In this document: piece after piece, positions 2,346 through 41,669 of the stretch
How the letters are laid out: every line of letters starts with the position of its first letter
How positions within the stretch are numbered: the first letter of the stretch is position 1
Source: Flavobacteriales bacterium
Lineage (GTDB): Bacteria; Bacteroidota; Bacteroidia; Flavobacteriales_D; Crocinitomicaceae
DNA: 41,669 nt
Direction of reading: 5' to 3'
Assembly: GCA_947380375.1 (NCBI GenBank)
Contig: CANCQX010000010.1
Location: 1-41,669, forward strand
Notes under the pieces: model-generated
The model's database searches: none
Told to the model about the DNA's origin: nothing
What the model saw: only the letters and a program-made list of their open reading frames with translations
Made by a program: the position numbers and the translations under genes

Positions 2346-5300
2346 CTACCCTTTCACCAAAGAGACTTTAGCATCTCCTTCATTTTCTAAATCTGTAATC
2401 AAAGCATCTAGACCTAAAGATTCAAAAACAATTTCATTTGCTAAAACTTCATTACAAACGTATTCTTTATTTGCTGCAATAGCACTTTGAATCAAATCAT
2501 TTGTGTCGACTTTTAGTAAAATACGGTCGGTAATTTCTAAACCTGAATCTTTACGTAAATTTTGAACTCTATTTACCAATTCTCGGGCAATTCCTTCCGC
2601 TCTTAATTCTTCTGAAATAGTAATATCTAAAGCAACTGTTAAACCACCTTCAACACTTACCAACCATCCTGGAATATCTTGAGCTAAAATTTCAAAATCA
2701 TTTAAATCAAGTGCAATTTCTTCACCATCAATTTCTCCATTCCAACCATTATTTGCTTCAATTTTAGCAATGTCATCCGTTGTAAAAGAAGCTACTAAAA
2801 CAGAAATAGCTTTCATTTGTTTTCCGAATTTCGGACCGATAGTTTTAAAGTTTGGTTTGATGCTTTTCACTAAAACACCATTTCCTTCTTCCAACAATGT
2901 CAATTCTTTGACATTTACTTCTGAAAGAATCAAATCTTTAACGTGCGTTATATTGTCCGAGAATGTTTTACTCAATGTCGGAACCATGATTGTTTGCAAA
3001 GGCTGACGGACACGTATTCTTTCTTTCTTACGTATTCCTAAAACCATTGAAGAAACACGTTGAGCAATCTCCATTTGAGCTTCCAAAGATGTATCAATGA
3101 TTGATTGATCAACTTTAGGGAATTCAGCTAAATGAACAGAAATTACATCGTGACGTTTAGTAACTGCATTTAAATCATTGAACAATTGATCCATAAAAAA
3201 CGGAGCAATAGGTGAACCTAAAATAGAAACAGTTTCTAAACAAGTATACAATGTTTGGTAGGCTGATAATTTATCTTTTGAATTGTCACTTTTCCAGAAC
3301 CTTCTTCTACATAAACGTACATACCAGTTAGATAATTGATCGGTAACAAAATCCTGAATCAAACGACCTGCTTTTGTAGGCTCGTAAGTTTCAAACGCTT
3401 CATCAACATTTTGAATCAATGAATGCAACTGAGAAAGTACCCAACGATCGATTTCTGGTCTTTCTTCTAAAGCAATATCAGCTTCTGAATAATCAAAACC
3501 ATCAATATTTGCATACAATGTGAAGAAAGAATAGGTATTGTATAATGTTCCGAAAAATTTACGTTGCACTTCTGTTATACCATCTAAATCAAATTTCAAA
3601 TTATCCCAAGGTTGTGCATTGGTAATCATATACCAACGAGTAGCATCCGGACCATATTGCTCCAAACATTTGAAAGGCTCAACCGTATTACCCAAACGTT
3701 TTGACATTTTTTGTCCGTTTTTGTCTAGTACTAAACCATTCGAAATTACATTTTTGTATGCTACTTTATCGAATACCATCGTTGCAATTGCATGCAAAGT
3801 ATAGAACCAACCACGTGTTTGATCTACTCCTTCTGCGATGAAATCACCAGGGAAACTTTTATTATCGTCAATTAATTCTTTGTTTTCAAATGGATAATGC
3901 CATTGTGCATAAGGCATTGAACCTGAATCAAACCAAACGTCAATTAAATCTGATTCTCTTTGCATCGGTTTACCTGAAGCTGAAACAAGCGTAATTGTAT
4001 CTACATAATTTTTATGTAAATCAATTTTAGAATAATTCTCTTCAGACATATCTCCAATAACGAAAGAAGCCAATGGATTTTCAGCCATTACTCCAGCTTT
4101 AACAGCTTTATCACATTCGTTTTTCAATTGTTCAACAGAAGAAATAATGATTCTTTCATCTCCTTCAGCAGTTGACCAAATTGGAATTGGAATACCCCAA
4201 TAACGAGAACGAGATAAATTCCAATCATTTAAATTTTCCAACCACTTTCCAAAACGTCCTGTTCCTGTTGATTCTGGTTTCCAGTTAATTGTTTTGTTCA
4301 ATTCCATCATTCTGTCCTTTGCAGCAGTTGCTTTAATGAACCAAGAATCTAATGGGTAATATAAAATTGGTTTGTCAGTTCTCCAACAGTGCGGGTAACT
4401 ATGTTCGTATTTTGCTACGTTAAACGCTTTATTTTCTTCTTTTAGTTTGATTGCAATTTGAACGTCTGCCGAACGTTCTGGCGCTTCACCTACGTTGTAA
4501 TATTCATTTTTAACATACATTCCAGCAAATTCAACAACTTCAGGCCTGAATTTACCTTGCAAGTCAACCAATGGAACTAAATTTCCTTTGTCATCTTTCA
4601 CTAACATTGCTGGAACTCCTGCTTCTGAAGCAACTCTCGCATCATCCGCTCCAAAAGTAGGAGCTATGTGAACGATACCTGTACCATCAGATGTAGTAAC
4701 GAAATCACCACTAATTACTCTAAATGCTTCTTCTGGATTTTCAGCTGGTAAAACACCTGGTAATAATTGCTCGTATTTTATTCCAACTAAATCAGATCCT
4801 AAACATTCTCCAGCTATGAAATAAGGAATTTGTTTATCTCCTTGATTATAAGCAACTAAACCGCTTTCAGATTCAACAAGATTAAATCCTTTCCCTCCAA
4901 ATTGATATCCAACAAGATTTTTAGCAAGAATTACATTGATTGGTTCGAATGTGTATTTATTGAATGATTTCACCAATACATATTCAATTTTTGGTCCAAC
5001 ACATAATGCGGTATTGGATGATAATGTCCATGGAGTTGTTGTCCATGCTAAAAAATGGATATTTTTTGCGGGTTGTAGGTTCAGGGCATGACCTGAACCT
5101 ACAACCGCGTTAGAATAGCCAAACGGCGTTTTTTCACCATCAACAACCTTAAACTGCGCAACAACCGTAGTATCCGAAACATCTCGGTAACAACCTGGTT
5201 GGTTTATTTCGTGTGACGATAATCCTGTACCTGCTTTTGGTGAATAGGGTTGGATTGTATAACCTTTGTAGATTAAACCTTTTTCGTATAATTGACCCAA

Positions 5301-5792
5301 CAACCACCAAACTGATTCCATGTATTTTGGTTCATAGGTAATGTATGGATCGTCCATATCTACCCAATACCCCATTTTTTCAGTAAGGTTGTTCCAAATG
5401 TCTGTGTAACGCATAACCGTTTCCTTACAAGCTTTGTTGTAATCTTCTACAGAAATTTTAGTACCAATATCTTCTTTTGTAATACCTAGTTCTTTTTCAA
5501 CACCCAACTCAATTGGAAGTCCGTGTGTATCCCAACCAGCTTTACGCTTAACTTGAAAACCTTTTAATGTTTTATAACGACAAAAAATATCTTTGATAGA
5601 ACGAGCCATAACATGATGAATACCAGGTAATCCATTCGCTGATGGAGGGCCTTCAAAAAACACAAATGGCTTGTTAGCATCACGAGTAGAAATCGATTTC
5701 TCGAAAACTTTATCATTGTTCCATTTTTCTAAAACTTCTTGTGCCACATTTGGCAAATTCAAACCTTTGTATTCTTGATATTTTTGACTCAT
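2346..5792 (-). CDS. ileS: Isoleucine--tRNA ligase, type 2 (eukaryote-like), with GxHH signature
   Basis: The 1148-residue enzyme charges tRNA-Ile with isoleucine in the cytoplasm. The class I signature region PPSANGLPGIHH lies at residues 49-60 and the second signature, KMSKR, near residue 700. The CP1 editing domain is marked by the threonine-rich AWTTTPWTL segment near residue 249. The C-terminus lacks the zinc-finger cysteines of type 1 bacterial IleRS, so this is the long type 2 form usual in Bacteroidota. The HIGH motif is altered: canonical H-I-G-H is G-I-H-H here (residues 57-60, bases 5613-5624), swapping first and third positions. A palindromic DNA insert encodes residues about 229-241, just before the editing domain. 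A candidate -7 box, TATCTTTA, lies at 5817-5824 on the minus strand, one base off consensus. The gene is divergent from the PhoD-family gene. Confidence 0.97.
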   Translation of the reverse strand: MSQKYQEYKGLNLPNVAQEVLEKWNNDKVFEKSISTRDANKPFVFFEGPPSANGLPGIHHVMARSIKDIFCRYKTLKGFQVKRKAGWDTHGLPIELGVEKELGITKEDIGTKISVEDYNKACKETVMRYTDIWNNLTEKMGYWVDMDDPYITYEPKYMESVWWLLGQLYEKGLIYKGYTIQPYSPKAGTGLSSHEINQPGCYRDVSDTTVVAQFKVVDGEKTPFGYSNAVVGSGHALNLQPAKNIHFLAWTTTPWTLSSNTALCVGPKIEYVLVKSFNKYTFEPINVILAKNLVGYQFGGKGFNLVESESGLVAYNQGDKQIPYFIAGECLGSDLVGIKYEQLLPGVLPAENPEEAFRVISGDFVTTSDGTGIVHIAPTFGADDARVASEAGVPAMLVKDDKGNLVPLVDLQGKFRPEVVEFAGMYVKNEYYNVGEAPERSADVQIAIKLKEENKAFNVAKYEHSYPHCWRTDKPILYYPLDSWFIKATAAKDRMMELNKTINWKPESTGTGRFGKWLENLNDWNLSRSRYWGIPIPIWSTAEGDERIIISSVEQLKNECDKAVKAGVMAENPLASFVIGDMSEENYSKIDLHKNYVDTITLVSASGKPMQRESDLIDVWFDSGSMPYAQWHYPFENKELIDDNKSFPGDFIAEGVDQTRGWFYTLHAIATMVFDKVAYKNVISNGLVLDKNGQKMSKRLGNTVEPFKCLEQYGPDATRWYMITNAQPWDNLKFDLDGITEVQRKFFGTLYNTYSFFTLYANIDGFDYSEADIALEERPEIDRWVLSQLHSLIQNVDEAFETYEPTKAGRLIQDFVTDQLSNWYVRLCRRRFWKSDNSKDKLSAYQTLYTCLETVSILGSPIAPFFMDQLFNDLNAVTKRHDVISVHLAEFPKVDQSIIDTSLEAQMEIAQRVSSMVLGIRKKERIRVRQPLQTIMVPTLSKTFSDNITHVKDLILSEVNVKELTLLEEGNGVLVKSIKPNFKTIGPKFGKQMKAISVLVASFTTDDIAKIEANNGWNGEIDGEEIALDLNDFEILAQDIPGWLVSVEGGLTVALDITISEELRAEGIARELVNRVQNLRKDSGLEITDRILLKVDTNDLIQSAIAANKEYVCNEVLANEIVFESLGLDALITDLENEGDAKVSLVKG
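5071..5106. repeat. 36-bp palindrome inserted in the ileS coding sequence
   Basis: Two perfect 15-base arms (GGTTGTAGGTTCAGG and its complement) flank the 6-base centre GCATGA, whose inner CATG also pairs. The element is read in frame as VVGSGHALNLQP. It lies in a segment of IleRS that is variable between relatives, just before the editing domain. GCG occurs on both sides, possibly by chance. Such a long perfect palindrome is not required by the protein and resembles a small mobile palindromic repeat. Confidence 0.85.
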
Positions 5793-38689: not shown

Positions 38690-39532
38690 TTATGAAAAGA
38701 AAATATACAATGGAATGATTGCAAACAAAGCAGGAACAACAATTGAAAATGCTTTTCCTACGTTAGCAATAATTGGCGTGTAACGTGGATGACGTAAACC
38801 TAGTGTTTGAAATGCAGCAGCAAAACCATGCATTAAATGGAAAGATAATACCGCCATTGCAATCGTATATAATAAAACGCCTAACCAAGCTAAAGGATTT
38901 GCTTTCATTCCGTGTGCTTCTTTTCCGAAAAAAGCCATTACTGCAGAATGTAAATCTTTGTAACCTTCACCAATTTTAATGTTCACTTCTTTGTTGTAAA
39001 ACATTGTTTCATCTCTCACTTCAACTTGTTCTACTGGTATGTAGTTTTGGTTGGTAGTGATGTACAATTCTTGAGGTTTAGGAGCATTTGGAACTGAAAT
39101 TTCAACTTTGTGCAAGTTTAAACCTCCGAAATGCATTTTAGCCCAAAAATTCACCATGTGTGTTACGATGAAAATCAAGATAATACTTCCCAAAACAGCC
39201 ATTTTTCTTGAAGCTGAAGAAGAGTTTGAAGCCGCATTATTTACTGCATACTGAACTGGTCTTGCTTTTTTGTTTTGAACCGCTAAAAGAATACCATCAA
39301 TAGCGTGAAACAAAATTGAAAGATAAGTAACGTAAGACATTACCTTAATCAATGGATTGTGCTGCATAAAGTATGCATACTCATTGAAAGCTCTTCTTCC
39401 TTCTTCACCAGAAGCGAATAATTGCAAATTTCCTAATAGATGTCCTACTAAGAATAGACATAAAAACAATCCTGTAAATGCCATCCAGTACTTTTTGGCA
39501 ATAGAGGATTTTAATAAAACTGACTTACTCAT
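38690..39532 (-). CDS. sdhC: Succinate dehydrogenase cytochrome b subunit (type B)
   Basis: The 280-residue inner-membrane subunit has five hydrophobic segments and conserved histidines in membrane helices (GHLLGNL, HAIDGILL, HMVNFW, HLMHGF) suited to bind two hemes b and menaquinone. The start is the ATG at 39530-39532 (MSKSVLLKSS); the frame is open ten codons further but only to a TTG. A soluble insert (about 150-200) links helices. It is the first gene of the operon; the box TAAATTTG lies about 28 bases upstream. Confidence 0.93.
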   Translation of the reverse strand: MSKSVLLKSSIAKKYWMAFTGLFLCLFLVGHLLGNLQLFASGEEGRRAFNEYAYFMQHNPLIKVMSYVTYLSILFHAIDGILLAVQNKKARPVQYAVNNAASNSSSASRKMAVLGSIILIFIVTHMVNFWAKMHFGGLNLHKVEISVPNAPKPQELYITTNQNYIPVEQVEVRDETMFYNKEVNIKIGEGYKDLHSAVMAFFGKEAHGMKANPLAWLGVLLYTIAMAVLSFHLMHGFAAAFQTLGLRHPRYTPIIANVGKAFSIVVPALFAIIPLYIFFS

Positions 39533-39559
39533 AGATATAATTATTTGTAAAATATAGGG

Positions 39560-39567
39560 CAAATTTA
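39560..39567 (-). promoter_or_regulatory. Candidate -7 box of the sdh operon
   Basis: The minus strand reads TAAATTTG, matching TAnnTTTG, giving a leader of about 22 nt before sdhC. No good -33 TTG is visible. Confidence 0.45.
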
Positions 39568-39924
39568 ATAGTTACAACCTATAAATAACGTTTTAAACCT
39601 TATTTAGACTGATTTTAAGTAAGGTTGAAGAAATTGATAAATAAATATTTAAGGAAATAGACTTTAATACAATTTTTAAAAAGCTACAATCATCTGATAC
39701 AGATCAAATAACGAGGTGATACGAGTCAGCATTGCTAAAAACAATTAATTCCATATTTGTGGTGATAAGGTAAATCAATAAGGTTAATTAAAAAATAGAA
39801 AATCAGATTCGAGCTTTCGGTGAGTTTAAGTTTAGTTAAAAAAACGTTCGTTAGTTGAATTATGTTTCTAAAAATTTAATGAATCAAATTGAATTATTTA
39901 GGTAAATAAATTAAAAAATAAAGT
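39568..39924. other. Non-coding divergent region between sdhC and the next plus-strand gene
   Basis: About 357 bases without a plausible gene. Apart from the sdh -7 box next to it, I see no strong palindrome or repeat. On the plus strand CATATTTG (near 39752) is one base off a -7 box. The AT-rich stretch before 39925 lacks a Shine-Dalgarno site. Confidence 0.5.
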
Positions 39925-40356
39925 ATGAAATTATTATCAGCACCAAAGGCAAAGTACTTATTAGAAGGAGGACTTGATGTATTGCATTCACAGAGTATTG
40001 AATGGTTAAGTGAAGTTGCATTTTGGAGAGACGAAGCAGCTTTTTTTCATGAATTAGTAGCTGAAAAGACTAGAAAGCCAATGTCATCAAAAGCAAAAGA
40101 TTCATTTCAAAAAATAGAGAGTGAATTAGTTAAATTAAAAACTACTGAATTAGATGAATTAGAAGATTCTGTTGAAGCGCATGAAGTATATTTAGATAAA
40201 TTAATGCAAAACGAGTACAAAGATCAAGAACCTTATAGAGAGAAGCACCGCGCTTTAACATTTCAATTTCATATTATTGAAAGCCAAATTCAAAAAATGA
40301 AAAAAGAGGTTTTTAAATTATCAAAATTGATTCATGAAACAGAATTAGTTAGTTGA
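39925..40356 (+). CDS. Helical coiled-coil protein of unknown function
   Basis: The 143-residue protein is predicted to be entirely helical, with long charged heptad-like stretches at about 75-140 (KTTELDELEDSVEAHEVYLD, then QIQKMKKEVFKLSKLIHE). The front (about 20-50) has aromatic residues typical of a packed bundle (WLSEVAFWRDEAAFFHE). There is no signal peptide or membrane segment. I do not recognise a family. It is followed 19 bases later by a membrane-protein gene on the same strand. Confidence 0.68.
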   Translation: MKLLSAPKAKYLLEGGLDVLHSQSIEWLSEVAFWRDEAAFFHELVAEKTRKPMSSKAKDSFQKIESELVKLKTTELDELEDSVEAHEVYLDKLMQNEYKDQEPYREKHRALTFQFHIIESQIQKMKKEVFKLSKLIHETELVS

Positions 40357-40375
40357 TATAATTTATTAAAATATA

Positions 40376-41029
40376 ATGTGTTTTTCATTAGAAGCAAGTT
40401 TTATTTCAGGAACAGTATTGGCAGTGGTTGGAGTTGCAGCGATTAAAAAAACGCATACGATTCCTCAAGCAATGTTTGCTGGTTTTCCGCTACTTTTTTC
40501 TTTCCAACAATTTTCGGAAGGATTTGTATGGCTCTCAATTACAAATACGGAGTATTCTTCTTGGTTAAAACCATCTGCAACTATATTTTTGACAATTGCT
40601 GAAGTTATTTGGCCTACTTGGATTTCACTATCAATTTATCTGGTGGAAAAAGAAAGGATAAATAAAATAATATTGTCGATATTTTTTGGAATTGGAATAA
40701 TTGTATCGACCTATTTAGGAATACACTTATTGACAAATACAATACTAGTAGAACAAACAAATTACCACATCTACTATAATTTTGGTGTTCCCGACTCAAT
40801 CGTTCATATATTTAGCATACTCTATTTTCTTTCCGCAGTTATGCCGTTATTTTTTTCGAGTATCAATATCAAAAAAACGGCACCAATTGGACTATTAATT
40901 CTTCTTTCCTACCTTCTTTCAAAAATTTATTTTGAAAATTATGTACTATCAATTTGGTGTTTTTTCGCAGCTTTAATAAGTGTATTAGTTTATTCTATAA
41001 CATTTGATTTTCAGACATCTAAAGAATGA
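40376..41029 (+). CDS. Multi-pass membrane protein, DUF6629-like
   Basis: The 217-residue protein has about seven hydrophobic segments. Its start, MCFSLEASF, followed by FPLLFSFQQFSEGFVWL, is typical of DUF6629 proteins, whose function is unknown; they often begin MCFS. The conserved Q, E and W residues in the second helix may line a site within the membrane. It lies 19 bases after the coiled-coil gene and ends before a hairpin terminator, so the two form a unit. Confidence 0.72.
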   Translation: MCFSLEASFISGTVLAVVGVAAIKKTHTIPQAMFAGFPLLFSFQQFSEGFVWLSITNTEYSSWLKPSATIFLTIAEVIWPTWISLSIYLVEKERINKIILSIFFGIGIIVSTYLGIHLLTNTILVEQTNYHIYYNFGVPDSIVHIFSILYFLSAVMPLFFSSINIKKTAPIGLLILLSYLLSKIYFENYVLSIWCFFAALISVLVYSITFDFQTSKE

Positions 41030-41042
41030 AATACATCCAATA

Positions 41043-41079
41043 AAGAAACTGTCAAATTTACTTTGGCAGTTTCTTATTT
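41043..41079 (+). terminator. Terminator after the DUF6629-like gene
   Basis: AAGAAACTGTCAAA (41043-41056) pairs with TTTGGCAGTTTCTT (41062-41075) with one T-G wobble, followed by ATTTT, 14 bases after the gene. Confidence 0.75.
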
Positions 41080-41111
41080 TAAAGAATAATTAGAAATTAA
41101 ACGAAATAAAC

Positions 41112-41291
41112 ATGAAAAAAAATATAAAAAAAAGGGAAAAGGTAGATCCCGATGAACCTAAAATACCTGAAATACCAAAAAAAAGAGAAGACTCGCCGTC
41201 TAAAGAACCAAATGAACCAGAGATTTTTCCAGAAGAATATCCCCTTCCTCTTCCAGAAGAAACAGAAGAAGCTCCCCCAGAAATTGATTAA
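41112..41291 (+). CDS. Small proline- and glutamate-rich protein
   Basis: A 59-residue frame begins ATG after a short AT-rich leader and reads MKKNIKKREK, then repeats of the PEIP and PLPLPEE type. The proline and glutamate content (P every third or fourth residue) is far from random in such AT-rich DNA. Similar short P/E-rich proteins with a lysine-rich start occur in Flavobacterium genomes, with no known function. It should be disordered, with a basic head and acidic tail. It has no Shine-Dalgarno site and follows a terminator, so it would need its own promoter. Confidence 0.6.
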   Translation: MKKNIKKREKVDPDEPKIPEIPKKREDSPSKEPNEPEIFPEEYPLPLPEETEEAPPEID

Positions 41292-41419
41292 ACATAGTTA
41301 GAACTATCTTAAAAAGATATTTTTAACGCAAAAATCTCTAAAAAGTCATAAAAAAGATATAATTCCGATTAATAAATGAGTTATTTGTTAAAAAAATGAA
41401 ATAATTTCAAAAAAATATT

Positions 41420-41448
41420 TTGAAATCAAAATCAAATATATATATTTG
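41420..41448 (+). promoter_or_regulatory. Promoter of a candidate small RNA
   Basis: TTG (41420-41422), an 18-base spacer and TATATTTG (41441-41448) match the Bacteroidota consensus fully. No protein-coding start follows; a terminator lies 36 bases on. Confidence 0.7.
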
Positions 41449-41452
41449 TATT

Positions 41453-41516
41453 GATTGAGGTGGTTAGGTTAGGTTGATTAAGGAAAGCGATGAGACGCCC
41501 GTCTCATCGCTTTTTT
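41453..41516 (+). ncRNA. Candidate small RNA of about 65 nt
   Basis: A consensus promoter and a perfect terminator enclose a short segment with no reading frame of note. The 5' half carries a GGTTAGGTTAGGTT repeat that looks unpaired, and the 3' half is the terminator hairpin (AAAGCGATGAGACG and its complement). This is the layout of a trans-acting small RNA with an exposed seed. I cannot assign it to a known RNA family. Confidence 0.6.
41484..41516 (+). terminator. Intrinsic terminator of the candidate small RNA
   Basis: A perfect 14-bp stem (41484-41497 with 41500-41513) is followed by a T-run interrupted by one C. The stem is much richer in G and C than its surroundings. Confidence 0.88.
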
Positions 41517-41578
41517 CTTTATAATAACTTTGAGATGGATTTAATGGATCAAGTCGAATTGTTGTGGGGAGCGAAAAT

Positions 41579-41668
41579 TTAAGCATAAATATTTGTGAGT
41601 CTAAAAAGGAAAAATTCTATGTTTTTCACACCTCTAAATTGACTTCTAAATGCTTTCACTTTAGCATT
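41579..41668 (-). CDS. C-terminal end of an ISAon1-like transposase, cut by the window edge
   Basis: On the minus strand a frame is open from the window edge for 29 codons to TAA (41579-41581). It reads NAKVKAFRSQFRGVK, then NIEFFLFRLTNIYA. This closely resembles, from memory, the end of ISAon1-type transposases of Bacteroidota (..ESFNAKIKAFR..RGV...FFLFRL..I.A). The insertion-sequence end should lie between this stop and the small-RNA terminator; I cannot define its terminal repeat without the other end. Confidence 0.55.
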   Translation of the reverse strand, partial: NAKVKAFRSQFRGVKNIEFFLFRLTNIYA

Positions 41669-41669
41669 A

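Follow-up and report, generated by a model that had tools for sequence, protein, structure and literature searches.

A multicopy family of predicted small RNAs with an invariant UAG/UUAGG-repeat 5′ arm in the Crocinitomicaceae

The locus and the predicted small RNA unit

The window, which is the whole stretch of DNA that was analyzed (41,669 nt, contig CANCQX010000010.1 of the Crocinitomicaceae assembly GCA_947380375.1), carries close to its right end a gene for a DUF6629 protein, a compact intergenic unit, and the end of an insertion sequence (IS). The unit (41419–41518, forward strand) consists of a sigma-A-type promoter, a predicted transcription start, a 27-nt 5′ arm, and an intrinsic terminator. 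The individual features are the following:

40376–41029, forward strand: upstream neighbor gene (DUF6629), outside the unit and also present beside the copy on contig C150
41419–41422, forward strand: TTTG, −33-type promoter element, present in the sequence and enriched at −35 to −32 across 109 copies
41441–41448, forward strand: TATATTTG, −7-type promoter element (TAnnTTTG), conserved at −12 to −5, the flavobacterial sigma-A position (PMC9723704)
41453, forward strand: G, predicted transcription start, placed by the distance from TAnnTTTG and by the abrupt onset of conservation
41453–41479, forward strand: 27-nt 5′ arm GATTgAGGTGGTTAGGTTAGGTTGATT with UUAGG repeats, delimited by the alignment of copies; position 5 is G instead of T in this copy
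41481–41516, forward strand: intrinsic terminator hairpin with loop GCCC, from terminator scan, folding, and covariation
41511–41518, forward strand: T-rich tract with the predicted RNA 3′ end, from the sequence and the terminator scan
41579–41669, reverse strand: end of the IS transposase (...NAKVKAFRSQFRGVKNIEFFLFRLTNIYA, then stop), a neighbor outside the unit, in a stretch that is repeated at contig ends

The TTG of the upstream element (41420–41422) is separated from TATATTTG by 18 nt. The letters of the promoter TTG-N18-TATATTTG, which had been proposed in the first-pass annotation, are thus present, and the promoter itself is validated by the alignment of 109 copies: the only elements common to their otherwise unrelated upstream DNA are TTTG at −35 to −32 and TAnnTTTG at −12 to −5, as counted from the G of GATTTAGG. 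In Flavobacterium psychrophilum, TAnnTTTG is found at −12 to −5 of sigma-A promoters (PMC9723704). Because the spacing equals this position, the RNA start most likely coincides exactly with the onset of conservation. A scan for E. coli-type promoters returned nothing above chance, which is expected for a promoter of the Bacteroidota type.

The terminator (41481–41516) has 16 pairs and a GCCC loop, followed by Ts. Its stem had been described as 14 bp, which is close to the 13 Watson–Crick pairs plus outer A-U/G-U pairs that were found. No other terminator-like site lies within the final 2.2 kb of the window (39500–41669), where shuffled sequences give 0.6 ± 0.8 such sites. The fold of the predicted transcript beats 200 of 200 shuffles (z −3.9). 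No open reading frame (ORF) of at least 60 aa covers the unit in the window; the first-pass annotation had proposed a transcribed segment of 64–68 nt without a protein. The window unit combines what is generally expected of a small RNA (sRNA) gene, namely a promoter, a terminator, the absence of an ORF, conservation, and compensatory stem changes (for the latter two, see below). As judged from the sequence, 41453–41518 is almost certainly one copy of an independently transcribed small non-coding RNA gene of ~65 nt.

Copies in the genome and across the family

A DNA search of the window's own genome returned five full copies, on contigs C10 (the window copy), C150, C37, C144, and C85, a number which may be off by one in this draft metagenome-assembled genome (MAG). 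The C150 copy is a duplicate that includes the flanking genes, and the copies on C37, C144, and C85 have only the unit in common with C10. The arrangement of the DUF6629 gene, a 59-aa proline/glutamate-rich ORF (41112–41291), and the sRNA occurs twice (window 40376–41530 and G000:C150:1-790). Contig C1 of the same genome (69,566 bp; loci L201, L237, L257, L300) resembles an inverted duplicate with mirrored genes (e.g., 4834–5400 on the forward and 64167–64733 on the reverse strand), probably an artefact of MAG assembly.

The sRNA was found in 12 of the 12 searched genomes of the window's genus and in several other genera of the Crocinitomicaceae; the same search found no genome outside this family that carries it. 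When 84,980 species were scanned with sequence patterns, 97 stretches were obtained, nearly all of them from Crocinitomicaceae (Fluviicola, Brumimicrobium, Lishizhenia, and MAGs), the assignment of these relatives resting on the names of public contigs. Pattern matches in Thermosulfurimonas (L092), in L136, and on the viral contigs L137 and L139 proved to be fortuitous repeats that lack the unit. With a covariance model trained on 60 copies, the sRNA was detected in 100 of 150 Crocinitomicaceae genomes, with 1–13 copies each. Across the order, just two matches lie outside the family, both of them weak. A search of 296 genomes across the phylum gave only weak matches. The majority of these resemble ordinary terminators, and a short contig of genome G573 carries one related RNA. 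Collections of phage and plasmid records returned no sRNA match. Tandem clusters exist, with four copies inside 0.8 kb of one genome as an example. On this evidence from sequence comparison, the sRNA family is multicopy and specific to the Crocinitomicaceae. Its carriers include culturable Fluviicola and Brumimicrobium species, and many of them are water-living.

Several public records have names that do not fit their content. CP034120 (loci L098, L099, L109) is labelled Glaciecola amylolytica, yet carries Crocinitomicaceae-type sRNAs, as do several MAGs named Chryseobacterium gleum, Kuenenia, or Actinomyces. Some of the misnamed records match genomes of the window's genus.

Conservation of the 5′ arm and covariation of the stem

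In the alignment of homologues, which the first-pass annotation had proposed as a check, the 5′ arm is conserved and the stem pairs co-vary. Of 106 distinct copies, 79 carry exactly the consensus arm GATTTAGGTGGTTAGGTTAGGTTGATT, a conservation that is partly conditioned by the search, as the scan patterns span 19–22 nt of the arm. In most of the remaining copies, the only deviations are a G-to-A change at position 15 or changes in the final bases. Evidence that is free of this bias agrees: the arm-flanking GAT/TGAT, the copies from the own genome and the genus that were obtained by whole-unit BLAST, and five sites that were reached through a search with the neighboring WbqC-like protein. The arm is made up of UUAGG/UAG motifs, with three in the window copy and up to five in related subfamilies; in Brumimicrobium-type copies, one UAG is replaced by UAA.

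Among 60 copies, the terminator stem shows compensatory changes at 9 of 11 pairs. Double changes were counted in 191 cells of the stem (56 ± 11 when shuffled), and 93.8% of the stem cells are paired, which falls to ~50% in slid controls. The loop occurs as GCCC, GCTC, GCCT, or TCCC and is a mark of the family. The own genome was sampled for terminator-like hairpins over 1.12 Mb; 157 were found, and only the five sRNA copies among them have a GCCC loop. Because the 5′ end is invariant while the hairpins vary with compensation, the arm is probably the part that the RNA works with.

Two structural readings of the arm were rejected. A G-quadruplex of GGTGGTTAGGTTAGG was not picked by ViennaRNA with quadruplexes allowed and is broken in the Brumimicrobium variant GGTGGTTAAGTTAGG. 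A self-hairpin of the arm (alignment columns 1–23) is weak (−1.8 kcal/mol) and has no covariation support.

The candidate sRNA gene that had been proposed from the window copy is supported by its multicopy state, the conserved arm, the co-varying stem, its own promoter, and the spread across the family. With these comparative data, the small-RNA reading is far stronger than it could be from a single copy.

Comparison with known small RNAs

A search of Rfam, also proposed initially, did not place the sRNA in a known family: Rfam 15 gave no family at gathering score and no relevant match even at E values up to 10, FopS and GibS being absent there too. FopS of Bacteroides consists of a single-stranded arm and a terminator, is multicopy, and occurs in phages; it binds the RRM-1 protein RbpB within its 5′ part and represses susC mRNAs (PMC11697453). 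The Crocinitomicaceae sRNA resembles FopS (with GibS) from Bacteroides thetaiotaomicron in its multicopy siblings (14 there, 1–13 here), in a promoter directly upstream (sigma-ABfr there, sigma-A-type here), in a conserved single-stranded 5′ arm that is followed by a terminator hairpin, and in an RRM-1 protein in the genome, the lack of Hfq, and the occurrence in phages. It differs in that the FopS consensus is GTGTTTTTCATAGTATTAGATTTAAGGTTAACAAA, which has only its UAG content in common with the Crocinitomicaceae arm, in having no Rfam match, and in belonging to another bacterial family, which is mostly free-living. Thus, copies with 5′ arm and hairpin as well as a canonical Bacteroidota promoter are found as in FopS/GibS, but the shared R1/R1′ arm sequence (a match to the Rfam model) is not. 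With regard to pairing at start codons, as for susC, the sampled start regions (839 + 292) show no enrichment of complementarity. Because the arm sequence and the Rfam model do not match, the sRNA is not a FopS member; it has the FopS layout, yet by this comparison its multicopy siblings make up a new sRNA family of their own. This family, not listed before, is large, spanning ~100 genomes of one bacterial family with 1–13 copies in each.

Qrr, OmrA/B, and LhrC are near-identical sibling sRNAs with a long invariant single-stranded stretch, and they are sometimes arranged in tandem. They differ from the Crocinitomicaceae sRNA by belonging to other lineages, by being often Hfq-linked, and by having known mRNA targets; no sequence relation is established. 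The decoys CsrB and RsmX-Y-Z carry short repeated motifs in accessible RNA, with GGA as the motif for CsrA, and are encoded by several redundant genes. Short repeats in accessible RNA and redundant genes are likewise found here, but the repeats are UUAGG/UAG in a linear arm with a putative reader, whereas those of the decoys are GGA in hairpin loops. Rfp18 of Flavobacterium psychrophilum is also an sRNA from the flavobacterial lineage and conserved within its genus, but it has several stem-loops and pairs through the third of these, and no multicopy arm family was reported for it (PMC9723704).

Possible function of the arm

Hfq was detected in 0 of 40 tested genomes (with the control positive in 5). 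RRM_1 proteins occur in 130 of 150 Crocinitomicaceae genomes, and the window's own genome has two such genes. The sRNA and RRM_1 are found together in 93 of the 150 genomes, the sRNA only in 7, RRM_1 only in 37, and neither in 13 (Fisher p 0.002), an association that phylogeny confounds and that is not significant at genus level (p 0.14). The 7 genomes with the sRNA but without detected RRM_1 include both genomes of genus g4, which have strong copies. Autoregulation of RRM genes through upstream UAGG repeats was rejected, as such repeats were not seen upstream of the inspected RRM mRNAs.

We propose that the RNA would act in trans through its 5′ arm, which would be bound by one or more RRM-1 proteins of the Hfq-less hosts. 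Multiple gene copies would increase the amount of the RNA, which may thereby titrate or guide the RRM-1 protein; analogues would be the FopS sRNAs with RbpB in Bacteroides and the CsrB-type RNAs that titrate CsrA. The hairpin would end and stabilize the RNA, and its conserved loop is a possible second contact. It is quite likely that the RNA acts through its arm. That it is a trans-acting or decoy sRNA bound by RRM-1 is a tentative reading. The overall proposal (an sRNA gene with an arm that acts in trans and is read by RRM-1) is considered the best explanation, with a probability just short of even.

The RRM-1-bound reading is favored narrowly over a plain trans-acting antisense sRNA, which we regard as nearly as probable. 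The invariant arm would then be a seed that pairs with several mRNAs, and the copies would provide dosage and separate regulation. Long invariant arms are known in antisense sRNAs such as Qrr, and a seed of this kind is found in Qrr, OmrA/B, and FopS. The extreme conservation of the arm beside a freely varying hairpin would suit such a function, as would the multicopy siblings including tandem clusters and the layout of single-stranded arm and terminator, which equals that of FopS (PMC11697453). Complementarity to start regions argues against it. Among 839 start regions from the own genome, 48 strong arm duplexes were counted (77 ± 13 for dinucleotide-shuffled arms), and among 292 from a Fluviicola-like genome there were 53 (71 ± 10). 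The sampling covered ~37% (about 1.1 of 3.05 Mb) and ~9% (0.4 of 4.55 Mb) of the two genomes, and gene starts were crude, so that specific targets could be missed. Antisense controls showed a milder downward shift of the same kind, and the sampled DNA has no perfect complement of at least 10 nt close to a start codon. With values below those of the shuffles and this shift of the controls, there is no sign of a broad antisense role at start codons. The stretch GGTTAGGTTAGGTT, annotated at first as a possible target-pairing region, is the conserved element; its pairing role is putative. Because the arm is less complementary to start regions than shuffled arms are, protein binding would be at least as likely a role of the arm as target pairing.

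A wider version of the RRM-1-bound reading, with redundant UUAGG-repeat sRNAs as a family-wide decoy that sets the level of free RRM-1 and with phage copies that retune RRM-1 during infection, is considered unlikely. Hfq-free post-transcriptional control is barely understood in this phylum, and the sRNA family bears on it; its 27-nt invariant UAG/UUAGG-repeat arm is a ready probe for what bacterial RRM-1 proteins read.

Genomic context of the copies

The window contig ends inside the IS, and contigs C88 and C67 end in near-identical stretches. The IS end beside the unit had already been recognized in the first-pass annotation; it is the C-terminus of a transposase on the reverse strand (41579–41669). 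The IS-end copies on C88 and C67 are separate from the sRNA sites and devoid of the RNA, and the sRNA flanks are unrelated. This excludes that conservation is limited to copies of the IS, which had been named as a result that would speak against an sRNA. Judging by these contexts, the neighboring IS does not carry the sRNA.

Syntenic sites recur across genera: after dapB-lepB-wbqC, before recG, and between ispH and pyrG (gene names were given by eye from protein sequences). A protein search led independently to the wbqC site as well. In none of 110 copies is the unit overlapped by an ORF.

Viral contigs carry two of the copies, one in a Mu-like phage (L039:5936-6014) and one at a host/prophage junction (L038:9323-9404). 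Both have TCCC-type loops, which resemble those of chromosomal copies next to HTH genes (L075, L098). The copies on phage DNA hint that phages make use of the same circuit. A selfish or phage-borne RNA that is passed on by phages or integrative elements and serves the phage (e.g., in lysogeny control), with chromosomal copies as remnants, would account for these two copies and for HTH genes of the mobile-element kind next to some TCCC-loop copies; this origin is nevertheless quite improbable, as many copies reside in chromosomal sites kept across genera (dapB-lepB-wbqC, recG, ispH-pyrG) and the flanks of the copies are unrelated and without element ends. A cis-acting leader or attenuator, or simply a terminator shared by neighboring genes, would fit the intergenic position and the terminator at the end but is very improbable given that the downstream gene is on the opposite strand in 56 and on the same strand in 37 of the 93 copies with both neighbors called, that the unit has its own promoter, and that termination would not need conservation of the arm. 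From the mixed orientation, the synteny, and the promoter we conclude that the sRNA gene is chromosomal, old, and driven by its own promoter, and that it is neither a leader nor part of the IS.

Sister RNAs

Weak matches to the covariance model were recognized as sister RNAs, which keep the layout and the hairpin tip and differ in their arms, all of which are UAG/UUAGG-rich (GTAGTAGTAGGTTAGGTTGATTAGTGT, GAATAGTGGTTAGGTTAGGTTGAC, GGTTTAGTTGTAAAAGGTAGGTTAGGTTAGGTTAG; in the own genome GATAGTAGGTTAGGTATAAATTGAT at C3:19478). Related RNAs hold on to such arms while the rest changes (GTAGTAGTAGGTTAGGTTGATTAG, GAATAGTGGTTAGGTTAGG, GGTAGGTTAGGTTAGGTTAG). Subfamilies with arms of the GTAGTAGTAGG or GATAGTAGG type and an unchanged hairpin tip were found at G000:C3:19478-19551, G099:C1:687780, and G573:C120:3366-3448, the last of which is a sister sRNA outside the Crocinitomicaceae, on a short contig.
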